The translations under genes and the position numbers were made by a program. Below, one piece after another: positions 693 to 17,817 of a DNA stretch of 64,000 nt (the stretch's first letter is position 1; every line of letters begins with the position of its first letter). The DNA is from Bacillota bacterium. GTDB taxonomy: Bacteria > Bacillota > JADQBR01. A model generated the notes under the pieces. That model saw only the letters and a program-made list of their open reading frames with translations, searched no databases and was not told the origin of the DNA. The DNA is taken from contig JADQBR010000015.1 of the NCBI GenBank assembly GCA_016278515.1, positions 1 through 64,000 on the forward strand. Reading direction: 5' to 3'.

Positions 693-999
693 TTAATCTA
701 ACCCCCTTTACTTAAAATAATACGTGTCCGAAAAAGAAATCTTTCCTGGCACCATCTTTACTAGACTGATACCTGGCCATATCTTAACTGTAAAGGAGTT
801 AGATTTAGGATAGTAACCAAAAGTATTCAGCAAGTACTAACAGTATACCCATTATTTAGTATTATAGCAACAATTATCAATCTTAGACACAACATGAGAA
901 GTCTGCAGCGTGAGCTGATATTATACTATCAGCAATATGAGTTAAGAGAAAGTATTAATATTAAAGCGGTAGAGTCGGTTGATAACCACATCTGCCGCT
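693..999. other. Intergenic stretch
   Basis: AT-rich spacer upstream of the zinc-ribbon gene and downstream of pcrB. Apart from the pcrB terminator at its right edge and a short, unconvincing plus-strand reading frame starting near 893 that runs into the pcrB 3' end, I see nothing in it. Confidence 0.5.
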
Positions 1000-1002
1000 T
1001 TA
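962..1002 (-). terminator. Hairpin at the pcrB stop
   Basis: A 12-bp stem (962-973 with 991-1002, one G-T wobble) overlaps the stop codon of the minus-strand pcrB gene. The T-tract is weak, so termination may be imperfect. Confidence 0.5.
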
Positions 1003-1698
1003 TAATGCAAAATGGTTTATTATCTTTTTTAATTCCATAGGTGCCTCATGGGCCAAATTCCCTATTACTATAGTATCTACTATATCAAGCATTTCCTCTG
1101 CCTGTTCAATAGTTTCAATTCCCCCGCCATATATCAAATGGCTATTCTCTTTAGCCTTAGAGACTGCCTGAACCAGTCTTCTATCACCGTATCTGCCGCT
1201 GTATTCCAAATAAAAAATAGGCATGTTGTATATTTTTTCAGCTAATTCTAAATATGAAACCGCCTCCGCAGCAGTTGGGGAATTTGCCCCCGTGACCTTT
1301 GAAACGGCGGATAGCGGATTACATACTAAATACCCTTCAATAAGTATCCTATCCCAAGGAATATATTTTCCGTATTCTCTTATTGCAGAAAGATGCGCAT
1401 CTCTTAACCAGTAAAGATTATCTGTATTAAGAACAACTGGTAAAAAATAGCCGTCTGCCTCGAGGATAATGGCATCCGGTGAGGATAACTCCTGGAGTAC
1501 TATTCCTTCGTAGCCTAAGCTTCTAATCAATTCAAAAAGCCTATAACTATTTCCTATTGTTACGTTTTGTGTGCCGCCAATTACCAGCATTCTACTAGTT
1601 AAAGATTTAATTAATTCTCTTAGGCCATTGGTCACTGGCCTGTCCGGGTCAAGTTTTATTAGCACTCTTTCTGCTTTCAAGTCTAAAATGTTAAACAT
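1000..1698 (-). CDS. pcrB: PcrB-type prenylglyceryl phosphate synthase
   Basis: The 232-residue protein matches the PcrB/GGGP synthase family, TIM-barrel prenyltransferases that join a long polyprenyl diphosphate to sn-glycerol 1-phosphate; in Bacillus PcrB the donor is heptaprenyl diphosphate. Visible family motifs in order are KLDPDRP near residue 15, a phosphate-loop GGT, EGYLVCNPLSAVSKVTGA, the hallmark FYLEYSGRYGD near residue 165, YGGGI near 190 and IVIGN near 213. Length equals the family norm. The gene ends in its own hairpin and stands alone upstream of no obvious partner. Donor chain length cannot be read from the sequence. Confidence 0.85.
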   Translation of the reverse strand: MFNILDLKAERVLIKLDPDRPVTNGLRELIKSLTSRMLVIGGTQNVTIGNSYRLFELIRSLGYEGIVLQELSSPDAIILEADGYFLPVVLNTDNLYWLRDAHLSAIREYGKYIPWDRILIEGYLVCNPLSAVSKVTGANSPTAAEAVSYLELAEKIYNMPIFYLEYSGRYGDRRLVQAVSKAKENSHLIYGGGIETIEQAEEMLDIVDTIVIGNLAHEAPMELKKIINHFAL

Positions 1699-1770
1699 TG
1701 ATACTTCTCCTTTTATATTTTAAATCGGTTTGATGCCGATGCCAACTATCCTGACTTCTATCTGCCACTG

Positions 1771-2421
1771 CTAATATTTCTTTAACTGGGGCCGATGCTC
1801 AACCGCGTATGCCGCAGCTTCTGCCCGGTTACTCAACCCTAATTTACTCAAAATAGTACTGACATAATTCTTGATAGTTTTGGGACTAAGATACAATTCT
1901 TGGGCAATCTCATTATTGGTTTTCCCCTGAGCTATTAATAACATAATGTGCTTTTCCTTTGGCGCTAAGATGTCCTTTTCCACCCGCTCTTTCGGGTAAC
2001 CCTTGACTAACTCCATAACCCTTCCGGTTATTTCCGGATCCAGCAACGACTGCCCCTGTGCAACTTTCTTAATGGATCCTATTAACTCATCACTGGCTAT
2101 TTGTTTCAATAAATAGCCATTAGCTCCTGCCATAATTGATGACATAATAGCATCATCGTCCGAGTATGAGGTGAGCATCAATACTTTTACTTCGGGGCAA
2201 GCACTTTTTATCTCCCGACAAGCCTCAATTCCGTTACCGGAAGGAAAGCGCACATCCATTAGCACTACATCAGGACAAGTCTCTTTAGCCACCTTCAATC
2301 CTTTATCTGGTGTATCGGCTTGGCCAACCAGTTCAAAACTATGCTCGCCTCGTAGAATATGCCCGAGCCCAACCCGAACCATTTCGTGGTCATCCACAAT
2401 GACTACCTTAATTTTATCCAT
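1771..2421 (-). CDS. NarL/FixJ-family response regulator
   Basis: A DNA-binding response regulator with an N-terminal receiver (VVIVDDHE, phosphoacceptor Asp in VVLMDVRFP near residue 55, later Thr and Lys positions conserved) and a C-terminal LuxR-type helix-turn-helix (LIAQGKTNNEIAQELYLS, then KTIKNYVSTILSKLG). The ATG at 2421 is preferred over the GTG three codons upstream because an AGAGGTG ribosome site lies 6 bases before it and the GTG is part of that site. It overlaps the end of the sensor kinase gene by 8 bases, so the two are translationally coupled. The likely operator is the palindrome at 3951-3968. Confidence 0.9.
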   Translation of the reverse strand: MDKIKVVIVDDHEMVRVGLGHILRGEHSFELVGQADTPDKGLKVAKETCPDVVLMDVRFPSGNGIEACREIKSACPEVKVLMLTSYSDDDAIMSSIMAGANGYLLKQIASDELIGSIKKVAQGQSLLDPEITGRVMELVKGYPKERVEKDILAPKEKHIMLLIAQGKTNNEIAQELYLSPKTIKNYVSTILSKLGLSNRAEAAAYAVEHRPQLKKY

Positions 2422-3856
2422 TTGTATCACCTCTATATGGAATTAACAGATTAATTCTAGTCCCTTGCCCGCACTCAGAAACAATCTCCATTTTTCCGTC
2501 CATAGCATCAATTCGTTCCTTCATATTCTTGAGACCTCGATGATCTCCAGGCGAGCTCTCCGATGGAAATCCAGTTTCTCCTTGGTCAAAACCTCTTCCA
2601 TCATCGTAAATGATTATATCAATGCACTCCTTTTGCAGGGCGACATTTAATTCTATTGTTTTTGCTTGCGCATGGCGCCGAACATTATTAAGAGCTTCTT
2701 TAATAATATGATAAATATGTGCCCGTTGGTCAGGTGTCAACGCTTGTGTCCCCTTTTCCTTATAATTAAAAACAGGAGTAATTTCAGCAGTAACAGCGAA
2801 CTCATTAAGCAGCTCTAATATACTTTGATGCAGCTTTATATCTTGAAATTGCAGCTGCTGCAGGTCCATAATGTAGGACCTAATATCCTTGATTGTTTCA
2901 TCTAGCTTCATAATGGAAAAGTCTAATAATTCATCTGCGGGACGATTAGGAACATCAACATCCTTCATTAAACGGCGGCTCTGCTCTAGTGTTAACCCAA
3001 TTCCATACAAAGACTGAATAGTTCCATCATGCATTTCTCTGGAAATACGGCCTCTTTCCTGTAATGTGGCCTGTTTTCTCTCAGCTTCTTCCACCCTTTT
3101 CTTCTGTTCAACGTCAAAAAGCTCTAAACTTTTGACTATATTAATGCCTATTCCAATCCCTGCTGCAAGGCGAAATATCTGTACCGGAACACCTGTTACG
3201 GCAATAAAGGATTCGTAGTTAAGTATATTTGCAGGAAAGAAATCCAGTCTAGACCCAACCAAACCAGTGAAAAAGCCATATACAGCAATAAACAATGCAC
3301 CCCACCACATATGGTTAATTAGCCGGGGCATATCAAGAAGCTGAAACGCTCTAGTCTGTTTGAAAAACGCATAAGATGCCGTAATTGCAGCCGGAAAACC
3401 CAAAAAATATCTGGCCAACGTATTGGACAAGGCCAACCATGTATCAAAGTCCATTGTTCTTGACTTAAGGGCAGAAATAAGAAACAACCACATTACAAAA
3501 ACAACCAACGGTATCAAAGCCTTCTTATCCTTTTCAGGCAGTACCACTTTCAACCCAAACACAAATAGAAAAATATAAGATATGGAGAGCATCAGGTATG
3601 CGGCCACCCTGAGGAAATCGTAAACTAGAGGCGTCAAGCTGAGTTCATTGAGGGGTAGAAAGGCCGGGGCCCAATCTGCCAACCCATGAAAAATACCAAA
3701 CAATGCAAATAACCTAATGTATTTTGCCAGCTTAAATTGACTGACTTGTACGTTCTTAACCAGAATTGCAAATCCTGTTAAAACATATACCAAACCATAT
3801 GCAAAGAAAATCAATTCTCTATGCTGCTCGTAAATATCTACTAAATTAAACCACAT
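2414..3856 (-). CDS. NarX/LiaS-class membrane sensor histidine kinase
   Basis: A 480-residue kinase of the HisKA_3 class. The first 240 residues hold about seven or eight hydrophobic membrane segments without a sizeable extracellular domain, so it probably senses a membrane or intramembrane signal. A coiled linker leads to the H-box SREMHDGTIQSLYG (His near residue 276) and a HATPase domain with NNVRRHAQA and DDGRGFD, ending in a G-box near GLKNMKERI. Partner is the overlapping NarL-type regulator. It is transcribed away from the hexaheme cytochrome gene, which it may control. The signal is unknown. Confidence 0.88.
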   Translation of the reverse strand: MWFNLVDIYEQHRELIFFAYGLVYVLTGFAILVKNVQVSQFKLAKYIRLFALFGIFHGLADWAPAFLPLNELSLTPLVYDFLRVAAYLMLSISYIFLFVFGLKVVLPEKDKKALIPLVVFVMWLFLISALKSRTMDFDTWLALSNTLARYFLGFPAAITASYAFFKQTRAFQLLDMPRLINHMWWGALFIAVYGFFTGLVGSRLDFFPANILNYESFIAVTGVPVQIFRLAAGIGIGINIVKSLELFDVEQKKRVEEAERKQATLQERGRISREMHDGTIQSLYGIGLTLEQSRRLMKDVDVPNRPADELLDFSIMKLDETIKDIRSYIMDLQQLQFQDIKLHQSILELLNEFAVTAEITPVFNYKEKGTQALTPDQRAHIYHIIKEALNNVRRHAQAKTIELNVALQKECIDIIIYDDGRGFDQGETGFPSESSPGDHRGLKNMKERIDAMDGKMEIVSECGQGTRINLLIPYRGDTNG

Positions 3857-14932: not shown

Positions 14933-16000
14933 TCAAAACGAACATAGGAGCTGGAAATCAGCACTTATTTCAAAAGCGTTTACTGCATAGTCTTCGTAAG
15001 CGGTAACAAAAATAATCAGGGGGGCATTTTTCGTCTCCAGCAGCTTTTCAGCCACAGTGAAGCCACTTAAATCATACATCTGGATGTCAAGGAACACGAC
15101 GTCATGCTTAGTTGCCATGATTATTTCCAGCGCCGCTTCGCCGCTGTCTGCTTGACCGCATATCTTTATCCCTGGTATTTCAGCTAATAGATATTCAATT
15201 TCATCCATCGCAGGCTTTTCATCATCAACTAGCACCACTCGTAATTCTTTGGCTCCAACATTTTCATCCCTCCCCTGCGAAATGTTTAAGGGTATTGAAA
15301 AACTCATAACTGTACCCACCCCAGGTATACTTGCAATTTTGAGGGCAGCCTCTGACCCGTAAATGCTTTTTAAACGTTCGTTTACATTTATTAGCCCTAT
15401 GCCGATGCCTGTAGAAGAGTGGCTTTCCTCTTGAAATAACTTGTCAATTTTATTACTATTCATTCCAACCCCGTTATCTTCAATGGATACTTGCATCCCT
15501 CCATCCTGGCTTTTGGCTTCTATGATAATTTTGCCTCCGCCCTTTTGCGGTAAAATACCATGTTTTATTGCATTTTCTACCAGCGGCTGCAATAGCAGGG
15601 CCGGAACTTTGTTATAATAACAATTTTTTTCAATGTCAAATTGTACCTGTATTTTTTCACCAAATCTGGCCAATTCAATTGCTAAATAAGACTGAACATA
15701 ATGCAGCTCCTGTTTTAAAGTTACAAAATCTTCACCATGTTTTAAATTATTCCGGAAAAACTCTCCCAGTTCAATCAAAAGCTCCCGTGCCGTTTCCGGT
15801 TTCGTTCTCACCAAGGAAACCACAGTATTCAAGGCATTAAATAAGAAATGCGGGTTGATCTGAGCTTGTAAGGCCTTTAGCTTTACGCTGTTTAACATCC
15901 GCGACTGCTCTTCCAAAGCCGCCAGCTCCAATTGAGTGGAAAATAAATGCGCTAGGCCTTTGGCGAACTCAAGGTCGATATCATTCACGGAACCATCTGA
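14933..16000 (-). pseudogene. LytS-type kinase fused to LytT-type receiver, truncated at both ends
   Basis: The reading frame contains the end of a GAF-like region (LEFAKGLAHLFSTQLELA), a LytS/YehU-class kinase (QAQINPHFLFNALNTVVSL, then HATPase with VENAIKHG and GIGLINVNERL) and, without a stop, a receiver (RVVLVDDE, acceptor Asp in VVFLDIQM). The membrane and most of the sensing region are missing, and after AFEI the receiver turns into ten unrelated residues and a stop, so the LytTR DNA-binding domain is absent. The left end abuts an inverted SorC fragment at about 16003. This is a relic of a LytST-like system; whether kinase and receiver were originally one gene is unclear. Confidence 0.7.
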
Positions 16001-16005
16001 AATAT

Positions 16006-16122
16006 ATGGAAGGCGTATCCAGAGCGAAAATCAGTCGGCTGCTGGATAACGCTTTAAAAGAAGGCATTGTGCAGATTAAGATTGCTTATCCGGTGTGGAA
16101 TCTTCACTCGGTTTTTTCTTAA
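16006..16122 (+). pseudogene. SorC/DeoR-family regulator fragment
   Basis: Plus-strand codons from 16006 read VSRAKISRLLDNALKEGIVQIKI, the recognition-helix and wing segment at the N-terminus of SorC-family sugar regulators. Nothing of the large effector domain follows; the frame closes after eleven more residues. The fragment lies head-to-head against the truncated LytS relic, so the site is a rearrangement junction. Confidence 0.55.
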
Positions 16123-16157
16123 AAAAAATAAAAGGCCCATCATATTACGTGATGAGC
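16119..16157 (-). terminator. Terminator of the toxin-antitoxin operon
   Basis: A short stem (16135-16142 with 16150-16157, one mismatch) followed on the minus strand by CTTTTATTTTTTTT. It lies 11 bases past the antitoxin stop. Confidence 0.7.
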
Positions 16158-16167
16158 TACTTTAGTT

Positions 16168-17181
16168 TTAATCTATAATAAGTTGTTCTGCAAATGAAAA
16201 TGGTATAATTCGATAGCTTTCGGTACATTTATAAGCTTCTTCATGCATCATCTCAACAATTTCATCCGTATTATAATTACCAAACTTTGATATAATCTCA
16301 TCCAGCACTTCCATCTCTGAATGGCCAAGCTCTTTAATCTCAAACCCAGGAGTTGGCTTGAATTTATAGGTAATATTATCCCCGTACCAAACTGTATCAA
16401 AACTCACACCATTTAATAATACTATTTGATCATAACCTTCAGGTACTGCACCTTTAGGAAGAGTGCTATATGCTAGACCACTAATCGCTATCCCACTTCT
16501 TTTGAAATGAAGAATATCAGAGTACCAAAGCATTTTCATAAGTTTTACTTTGTGAAGACTGTCAACCTTTAAAGCTAGATAATTGATCATCTCAACGACC
16601 TTGTTTAAATTTAACTCTGCCCGACCAGCTACAGCCTCATTTTCATAATCTGCATAAATTGCTTGGATTGAATCGATTAGGTATTGGTTTCGCTTTTTTT
16701 TAAATTGTTCACTTGCTTCATGATGATATTTACTAAATGCCTTATCCGATATCCTTCCCTTTGCTCTTTTTAGCATTTCCAAGAACCACTTAGGGTCAGA
16801 ATCGATTTTACTAAGTACATTATCATGAGCACGGTCCTGAACCTGATGATTTTCGTATCTGGTAATTGTTGCTCTTCCCCAGTCAAGAATTTCAGAGAAA
16901 TCTTTCTGACTCACTCCATACTTTTCCCTTATATTGATAATCTCAGTAGAAGTCAATAAACCTACTTTTTTTCGATAAGCATCTTTCATCGTTAGGCTAT
17001 TTGTTTTAACCATTTCCTCTGTTTCAAGAAGTTCATCTGCATTAGAGCAGTATTCATAGGTAGAAGTGTAAGATACTTCTTCGCCCTTAAAAATCTCGTG
17101 ATCAACTATTTCCACAGTATCCACTTCATGCTCTTCTATACAGATTAAACATAACTTCTTTTCACTTTTAATTTTCTTCAT
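16168..17181 (-). CDS. MqsA-like HTH antitoxin fused to a Panacea (DUF4065) domain
   Basis: A 337-residue protein with three parts. Residues 1-55 resemble the YgiT/MqsA zinc-finger region but keep only one CxxC (Cys11, Cys14) plus a lone Cys near 45, so zinc binding may be lost. Residues 72-115 are an MqsA/XRE-type helix-turn-helix (EKYGVSQKDFSEILDWGRA, TITRYE). Residues 185-320 match the Panacea/SocA-like domain (KVVEMINYLALK, KLMKMLWYSDILHFKRSG, GLAYSTLPKGAVP). Panacea domains neutralise many unrelated toxins, and MqsA HTH domains bind their own promoter. It overlaps the upstream toxin gene by 14 bases, toxin first, as in mqsRA. The antitoxin role is inferred from domains and context. Confidence 0.8.
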   Translation of the reverse strand: MKKIKSEKKLCLICIEEHEVDTVEIVDHEIFKGEEVSYTSTYEYCSNADELLETEEMVKTNSLTMKDAYRKKVGLLTSTEIINIREKYGVSQKDFSEILDWGRATITRYENHQVQDRAHDNVLSKIDSDPKWFLEMLKRAKGRISDKAFSKYHHEASEQFKKKRNQYLIDSIQAIYADYENEAVAGRAELNLNKVVEMINYLALKVDSLHKVKLMKMLWYSDILHFKRSGIAISGLAYSTLPKGAVPEGYDQIVLLNGVSFDTVWYGDNITYKFKPTPGFEIKELGHSEMEVLDEIISKFGNYNTDEIVEMMHEEAYKCTESYRIIPFSFAEQLIID

Positions 17182-17644
17182 TCTTCTTCACCTCACTTTT
17201 CCTGTAGGGAAAGTCAGTTTCATTAAAGTCTCTATCTGAAAAATGAAAAGACATTACAAGAATATAGCTGCCGCCACTGGCATGTTCTATGCTCACTAAT
17301 TCTACCCTTATTTTTATGTAAACATCTTCGTTTGAATATTGTCTCCCAAAGACCCGCATCTCAGACCTGTTAGGAAAACGAATATCTTTTACTGTTTCAA
17401 TATATTCTTCTACAGTCAAAAAAGCCAGCTCTCTTTTCAATACTTCCACTTCGTCTTCATCCGGAAAGAGCTGCGCGATTGTATATCTATTTGTGTATTT
17501 CTTATCTCGACTTTCATCAACTTGCCTGTTTTTTTGGAAATTAATATTAACATAGCTACTCTCTAGTGCATATTTTAGGTTGTCAAGATGGAACTGTACT
17601 TCAGACTTTGATTCTATCCTTTTCTTCTCATTCCCCTCTTTCAT
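17168..17644 (-). CDS. MqsR-like toxin (putative mRNA interferase)
   Basis: A 158-residue protein lying just ahead of the MqsA/Panacea antitoxin gene. Its middle and end follow the MqsR pattern: an N-terminal helix-strand segment (HLDNLKYALESSYVNINFQK), a loop before LTVEEYIETVKDI, and the strand pair VYIKIRVELV and YILVMSFHF, which parallel VYLKITV and VLIVSFK of E. coli MqsR. It is about 60 residues longer than MqsR. MqsR is a RelE/RNase SA-fold ribonuclease that cuts mRNA at GCU. The match here is by eye and remote; gene order and overlap support it. The ATG at 17644 has an AGGAG site ten bases upstream. Confidence 0.6.
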   Translation of the reverse strand: MKEGNEKKRIESKSEVQFHLDNLKYALESSYVNINFQKNRQVDESRDKKYTNRYTIAQLFPDEDEVEVLKRELAFLTVEEYIETVKDIRFPNRSEMRVFGRQYSNEDVYIKIRVELVSIEHASGGSYILVMSFHFSDRDFNETDFPYRKSEVKKNEEN

Positions 17645-17645
17645 G

Positions 17646-17675
17646 ATTATAACACTCCTTGCTATCCTCGGTCAA
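17646..17675 (-). promoter_or_regulatory. Sigma-A-like promoter overlapping the toxin start
   Basis: On the minus strand TTGACC (17675-17670) and TATAAT (17651-17646) are 18 bases apart. The -10 box ends one base before the toxin ATG, so a transcript from here would start inside the toxin gene. The AGGAG ribosome site lies between the two boxes. A further promoter upstream would be needed for a leader-bearing toxin message. Confidence 0.4.
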
Positions 17676-17817
17676 TACTTTTGGTATCAATTGATGCTGG
17701 TTATTATTTCCAAAACATTTATGAATTGATTTGCTTTAAAAAAAATATACATTAGTGTTGTATATCATCCATCGACACTTTCCAACAAAAGAATTGAACA
17801 AATTGCAACAAAAAGAA

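Follow-up and report, generated by a model that had tools for sequence, protein, structure and literature searches.

E. coli MqsRA (b3022-b3021) has its toxin gene first, an MqsA-type antitoxin head followed by a helix-turn-helix (HTH), an MqsR core with Tyr81 and a palindromic operator, each of which has a counterpart at the locus described here; it differs in the absence of Panacea, in a four-cysteine zinc site and in a toxin of 98 aa, against 158 aa here. The zinc ligands of E. coli MqsA are Cys3, Cys6, Cys37 and Cys40 and were described as perfectly conserved (PMC2791442). MqsRAC (PMC5105189, PMC9519451) shares the same toxin and antitoxin core, and in this group MqsA tails that depend on SecB are the established toxin-antitoxin-chaperone (TAC) arrangement (PMC5105189) and protection against phage has been reported (PMC9519451). 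The Bacillus fungorum MqsR:PanA pair (Ernits et al. 2023, PMC10440598) agrees with the present one in its MqsR-type toxin and in an antitoxin made of a zinc domain, an HTH and a C-terminal Panacea domain. For that pair, the zinc domain alone and the zinc domain-HTH construct were found to neutralise, whereas Panacea and HTH-Panacea were not (PMC10440598), and a sensing role for Panacea was favoured by Ernits et al. (2023, PMC10440598). In PanAT systems with a stand-alone Panacea domain (PMC8832971), the domain itself neutralises; the antitoxin described here shares the domain but would have a dedicated neutralising domain besides.

The window, a 64,000-nt stretch of contig JADQBR010000015.1 from a Bacillota bacterium (GCA_016278515.1), carries on its minus strand an ORF for a toxin of 158 aa (17168..17644), assigned to MqsR by profile homology, and one for an antitoxin of 337 aa (16168..17181) with an MqsA-like zinc domain, an HTH, a linker and Panacea. 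The toxin gene comes first, the two genes overlap by 14 bp, and a terminator-like hairpin with a T-rich tail (16135..16157, minus strand) lies 3′ of the antitoxin gene. Antitoxin residues 11–136 matched TIGR03830 (MqsA family) at 104.6 bits (cut-off 61.8), and the score against the MqsA profile PF15731 was 28.1, just below the cut-off of 30. Residues 83–111 matched HTH_3 just above cut-off, and SocA_Panacea (PF13274) was matched at 65.4 bits (cut-off 25.7), in a gene that lies beside a toxin gene as in PanA. A PDB sequence search with the antitoxin gave weak MqsA matches only (E 0.003). The AF2 model of the protein had a pLDDT of 89.1 overall and of 90–96 per 10-residue block over residues 1–80. 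From the TIGR03830 match, which starts at residue 11, and from pLDDT, the MqsA-type zinc domain was placed at residues 1–72 (16966..17181), and from HTH_3 the XRE-type HTH region at residues 73–140 (16762..16965), both with approximate borders; the Panacea (SocA) domain, from PF13274, covers residues 214–316 (16234..16542, all minus strand). The architecture of the pair is of an already described kind. With a probability of roughly three in four, the pair is read as a type II MqsRA system of the Panacea-tailed kind, in which an MqsR-like RNase would be neutralised by a Cys3-His zinc head, the HTH would act as repressor and Panacea would be an exchangeable trigger tail.

The toxin alone gave no useful match in Pfam, NCBIfam, PHROGs or PADLOC family scans, and above-cut-off matches to PF15723 (MqsR) were absent for the toxin, for 16 relatives and for the whole of its own genome. 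Its link to MqsR was made via intermediate profiles. A set of 97 different antitoxins, each with a head of the MqsA type, was taken from the genome survey, from database loci and from fetched relatives, and the toxin and antitoxin-head profiles were iterated over these. A toxin-profile match on the same strand was obtained for 76 of the 97, nearly always directly upstream, and almost all toxin-profile matches in the iterated search were located directly upstream of an MqsA-type gene, which supports the toxin profile independently. Profile–profile comparison aligned 118 columns of the window-clade toxins with toxins found beside four-cysteine MqsA (probability 99.2%, E 1e-19), and searching with the profile of the latter toxins in turn recovered E. 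coli MqsR with an E-value of 8.6e-5, compared with 0.079 for the top-scoring one among 2000 shuffled decoys. By this chain of profiles the toxin is assigned as an enlarged MqsR homologue. The first-pass annotation had placed an enlarged MqsR upstream of, and overlapping, an antitoxin composed of an MqsA head, an HTH and Panacea; both proposals were borne out, the former by the ORFs, their overlap and the profile chain, and the latter by the TIGR03830, HTH_3 and PF13274 matches.

Alignment to MqsR showed that the extra toxin length, about 20 residues, follows the N-terminal helix and precedes the core. The residues important for toxicity in E. coli are K56, Q68, Y81 and K96 (these and the role of Tyr81 from PMC2791442). 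Catalytic Tyr81 is kept as Tyr109 (17318..17320, minus strand; residue 97 is the predicted catalytic Tyr of the B. fungorum toxin), which is nearly invariant in 60 sequences, and the position of Lys96 is occupied by His134 (17243..17245, minus strand), as in most relatives; for K56 and Q68 the alignment showed no clear counterpart. This histidine belongs to an SFH motif common to nearly the whole family, with S132 invariant and F133 and H134 nearly invariant in the 60 sequences. The AF2 model of the toxin, built on an alignment of 16 close relatives only, had a pLDDT of 72.6 and consisted of helices followed by a beta sheet. Foldseek with the AF2 models of toxin and antitoxin gave no significant PDB match, the toxin model being the one built on 16 close relatives, and querying the PDB with a profile of the close relatives returned noise only. 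Homology and the kept residues suggest an MqsR/RelE-like fold and an RNase whose cleavage of mRNA would bring translation to a halt.

Relatives of the toxin were found on 17 genome contigs (53–86% identity; Clostridia, Lachnospiraceae, Bacillaceae), and at loci with a long enough contig the antitoxin gene adjoins the toxin relative, making this a conserved pair. The toxin-clade profile matched 9 of 398 genomes in a sample of the phylum. Viral contigs also encode relatives of the window pair: at L126, inside a prophage, the pair is flanked by the large terminase gene and the portal gene, and at L122 it lies among large serine recombinases, these identities being read from sequence. Few or no matches came from scans of viral contigs with four-cysteine antitoxins or with individual distant proteins. 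The window pair is best read as an MqsRA system that is mobile, in part carried by prophages, and equipped with Panacea as its trigger module.

Several further observations were made on gene content. In the same genome, a second pair (L101, on G000:C100) consists of an MqsR-like toxin and an antitoxin with a four-cysteine head, HTH and Panacea. Downstream of the window pair, positions 14933-16120 hold apparent remnants, in which, as read from sequence, a sensor kinase runs into a truncated response regulator and the plus strand has a fragment resembling a SorC-type regulator. At L050 (bases 900-2484, minus strand), a single open frame of 529 aa encodes both the toxin and a four-cysteine Panacea antitoxin, with no intervening stop; MqsR-MqsA fusions are on record (PMC11980606). 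A jumbo phage (L167:1498-1866; Bacillus phage Goe21, with PBS1 records matching too) encodes a lone four-cysteine MqsA head-HTH protein of 122 aa, with no MqsR-like gene seen adjoining it, and this protein is possibly a phage-encoded antitoxin against host MqsR systems.

In the zinc site of the window antitoxin, Cys11 and Cys14 (CxxC; 17140..17151, minus strand) and the third cysteine, Cys45 (17047..17049, minus strand; from the alignment), are retained as candidate ligands; only the fourth cysteine is gone, its position being taken by Ala48, and the four-cysteine CxxC...CxxC pattern is incomplete. The fourth cysteine is missing in all relatives of the window clade. A candidate substitute is the invariant His18 (17128..17130, minus strand), which co-occurs with the loss of the fourth cysteine: in the survey, a histidine at position +4 from the second cysteine was present in 27/27 three-cysteine relatives and absent in 60 of the 61 four-cysteine relatives. 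In an alignment of 19 antitoxins, few of the first 72 positions were invariant, C11, C14, H18 and C45 being among them. In a tree built without the ligand columns, the three-cysteine, one-histidine proteins formed one side of a branch with an SH-aLRT of 97 and, since these proteins form one clade, the ligand change is taken to be a single event kept over long branches and not a set of parallel events. L086 is the sole four-cysteine antitoxin that also has the extra histidine, a state expected of an intermediate, but it branches elsewhere in the tree. The zinc site has probably changed from Cys4 to Cys11-Cys14-His18-Cys45, that is, by ligand exchange and not by decay; conservation points to His18 as a putative zinc ligand, and the exchange would have happened once in evolution. 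The N-terminal MqsA domain, with this probable site, would bind and neutralise the toxin.

An alternative is that zinc has truly been lost, with an MqsA fold that neutralises metal-free and a His18 kept for another purpose such as toxin contact. Metal-free derivatives do exist, since Bacteroidota antitoxins beside MqsR have lost the CxxC pair and keep the third cysteine alone, and L035, L045, L066, L165 and L166 are without the CxxC pair while several of them are still beside MqsR-like toxins; moreover, His7 of E. coli MqsA sits in a secondary MqsR interface (PMC2791442). The alternative is nevertheless considered unlikely, as zinc loss elsewhere removes the first CxxC, whereas here the CxxC and the third cysteine are invariant and the histidine is present exactly where the fourth cysteine is gone. 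The head had earlier been called degenerate, with 'lost cysteines'. One cysteine has indeed been replaced, but the other three remain, and a degenerate head does not agree with four invariant positions (C11, C14, C45, H18) or with a histidine that accompanies the loss of the fourth cysteine in every three-cysteine relative surveyed.

It is most likely the zinc domain, not Panacea, that silences the toxin in the window clade. For this clade, the statement on neutralisation is made by analogy with B. fungorum PanA, whose zinc domain may be of the Cys4 or the Cys3-His type. Panacea is present with 52 of the 61 four-cysteine heads and, since such heads also carry it, did not arrive with the ligand change. 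Antitoxins without Panacea still adjoin MqsR-like toxins, in a count that leaves out several entries that are contig ends or fragments; one of them, L046, has a possible ribbon-helix-helix tail (20.4 bits against a cut-off of 20.5). A distance-based co-evolution analysis did not single out one domain as tracking the toxin: toxin distances leaned towards Panacea in the four-cysteine set and towards the zinc domain in the window clade, with wide intervals.

The part that appears to be exchangeable is the antitoxin tail and not the neutralising head. L008 (Desulfosporosinus bin), a member of the window clade, has a toxin with 64% identity and an antitoxin with 64% identity over the first 172 aa (head and HTH), followed by an unrelated tail; the next gene starts 14 bp on, with TTG, and is SecB-like (Pfam SecB 31.9 bits, cut-off 26). 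The same arrangement was found in L037, which is four-cysteine and Panacea-less (Pfam SecB 38.3 bits). Both loci thus have an MqsRAC-like layout, with a SecB-like gene behind a Panacea-less antitoxin, and the gene layout suggests that the L008 tail would depend on its SecB-like chaperone. The window differs from MqsRAC in having Panacea and no adjoining SecB-like ORF, which places it outside TAC. In the flanks examined, the SecB profile found no such gene beside any Panacea-bearing member, the window pair included, and when 358 genomes were searched with the SecB-like protein of L008, the only match beside this toxin-antitoxin family was L037 again. The third genes of L053 and L165 had been taken by eye for SecB-like, and failed a profile built without them. 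The genome of the window has a SecB-like gene elsewhere (L174, on G000:C68), where no MqsA was seen adjoining. With L008 and L037 as the two loci, which are few, the tail exchange is to be taken as a lead.

That this is an ordinary MqsRA pair whose Panacea domain is an appendage for structure or dimerisation and has no part in sensing has little probability: the Panacea domain of L. rossiae PanA was predicted to take part in homodimerisation (PMC10440598), but 21 of 143 Panacea residues are invariant in the window clade, and L008 and L037 fill the place of Panacea with another regulatory arrangement and not with nothing. Least likely is the model of the first-pass annotation, in which a system caught in the middle of swapping domains had a decaying MqsA zinc domain and a Panacea domain that now neutralises the toxin directly in its place: one of the zinc cysteines is missing, a stand-alone Panacea can neutralise unrelated toxins (PMC8832971; PMC10440598) and, with the wide intervals given above, toxin distances in the four-cysteine set track Panacea more than the zinc domain, but the same architecture gave the opposite result in B. 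fungorum, where the zinc domain alone neutralises (PMC10440598), the remaining ligands and the new histidine are invariant in a three-cysteine, one-histidine state that is old and clade-wide, several relatives without Panacea are still paired with a toxin, and the part seen exchanged, in L008 of the window clade, is the C-terminal tail with its Panacea. On the preferred reading, the Panacea tail would not be the neutraliser and would couple the complex to a trigger; at the same position, some relatives have a different tail together with a SecB-like chaperone.

The HTH is the most conserved antitoxin domain (18 of 68 columns invariant). A palindrome that resembles an operator, GGTATCAATTGATGCT, is located at 17683..17698, 39 bp upstream of the toxin ATG, and departs from the consensus GGTATCAWWTGATACC at 2 positions. 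The consensus GGTATCAWWTGATACC was found upstream of the toxin gene with 0–2 mismatches in 18 of 25 loci of the window clade, for each of which 0 of 100 shuffles were as good, and over the whole genome there were 6 sites with ≤2 mismatches, against 2 for the reversed control pattern. The core TATCAWWTGATA recurs in part of the four-cysteine relatives; the corresponding E. coli MqsRA operator motif is AACCT-N3-AGGTT (PMC4894380). The palindrome is likely to be the HTH operator, at which the HTH, as a dimer, would repress the operon. A sigma-70-like promoter (TTGACC-18-TATAAT with TG before the −10, 11/12 match) lies at 17646..17675 on the minus strand, with a single nucleotide separating the end of its −10 from the toxin ATG; the promoter is conserved across the window clade, with a spacing of 17–18 nt.

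The motif TTGAC-17/18-TATAAT is almost invariant in the window (17644-17675, minus strand) and in L001-L009, L011, L025, L027, L122, L124-L126 and L132, and at these loci the distance between the end of the −10 and the toxin start codon is just −2 to +4 nt. Because the toxin start abuts the −10, a normal transcript would start inside the toxin gene and could make the antitoxin only. At three of these loci no in-frame start codon was seen there, and in Lachnospiraceae members the toxin start is mostly farther from the −10. In E. coli, mqsA is transcriptionally uncoupled from mqsR (PMC6918082).

Taken further, the MqsR-MqsA core may be a fixed effector that is combined with interchangeable C-terminal triggers, Panacea in the window pair and, in L008 and L037, a tail resembling those of chaperone addiction with a SecB-like partner. 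Given the protection against phage by MqsRAC, Panacea would serve at that position as a second sensor of phage or stress, one that works without a chaperone, here in a clade with a probable Cys3-His zinc site. This model is held tentatively, at somewhat under even odds. No paper in the literature searched treats Panacea and the chaperone tail together as features of one family. For the zinc site, the lesson is that the loss of one cysteine from a conserved metal site is not by itself a sign of decay. The discoverers of Panacea have asked what role it plays in antitoxins that possess a neutralising domain besides, and this role becomes directly testable in a clade where the same position on similar proteins is taken by Panacea or by a SecB-associated tail.
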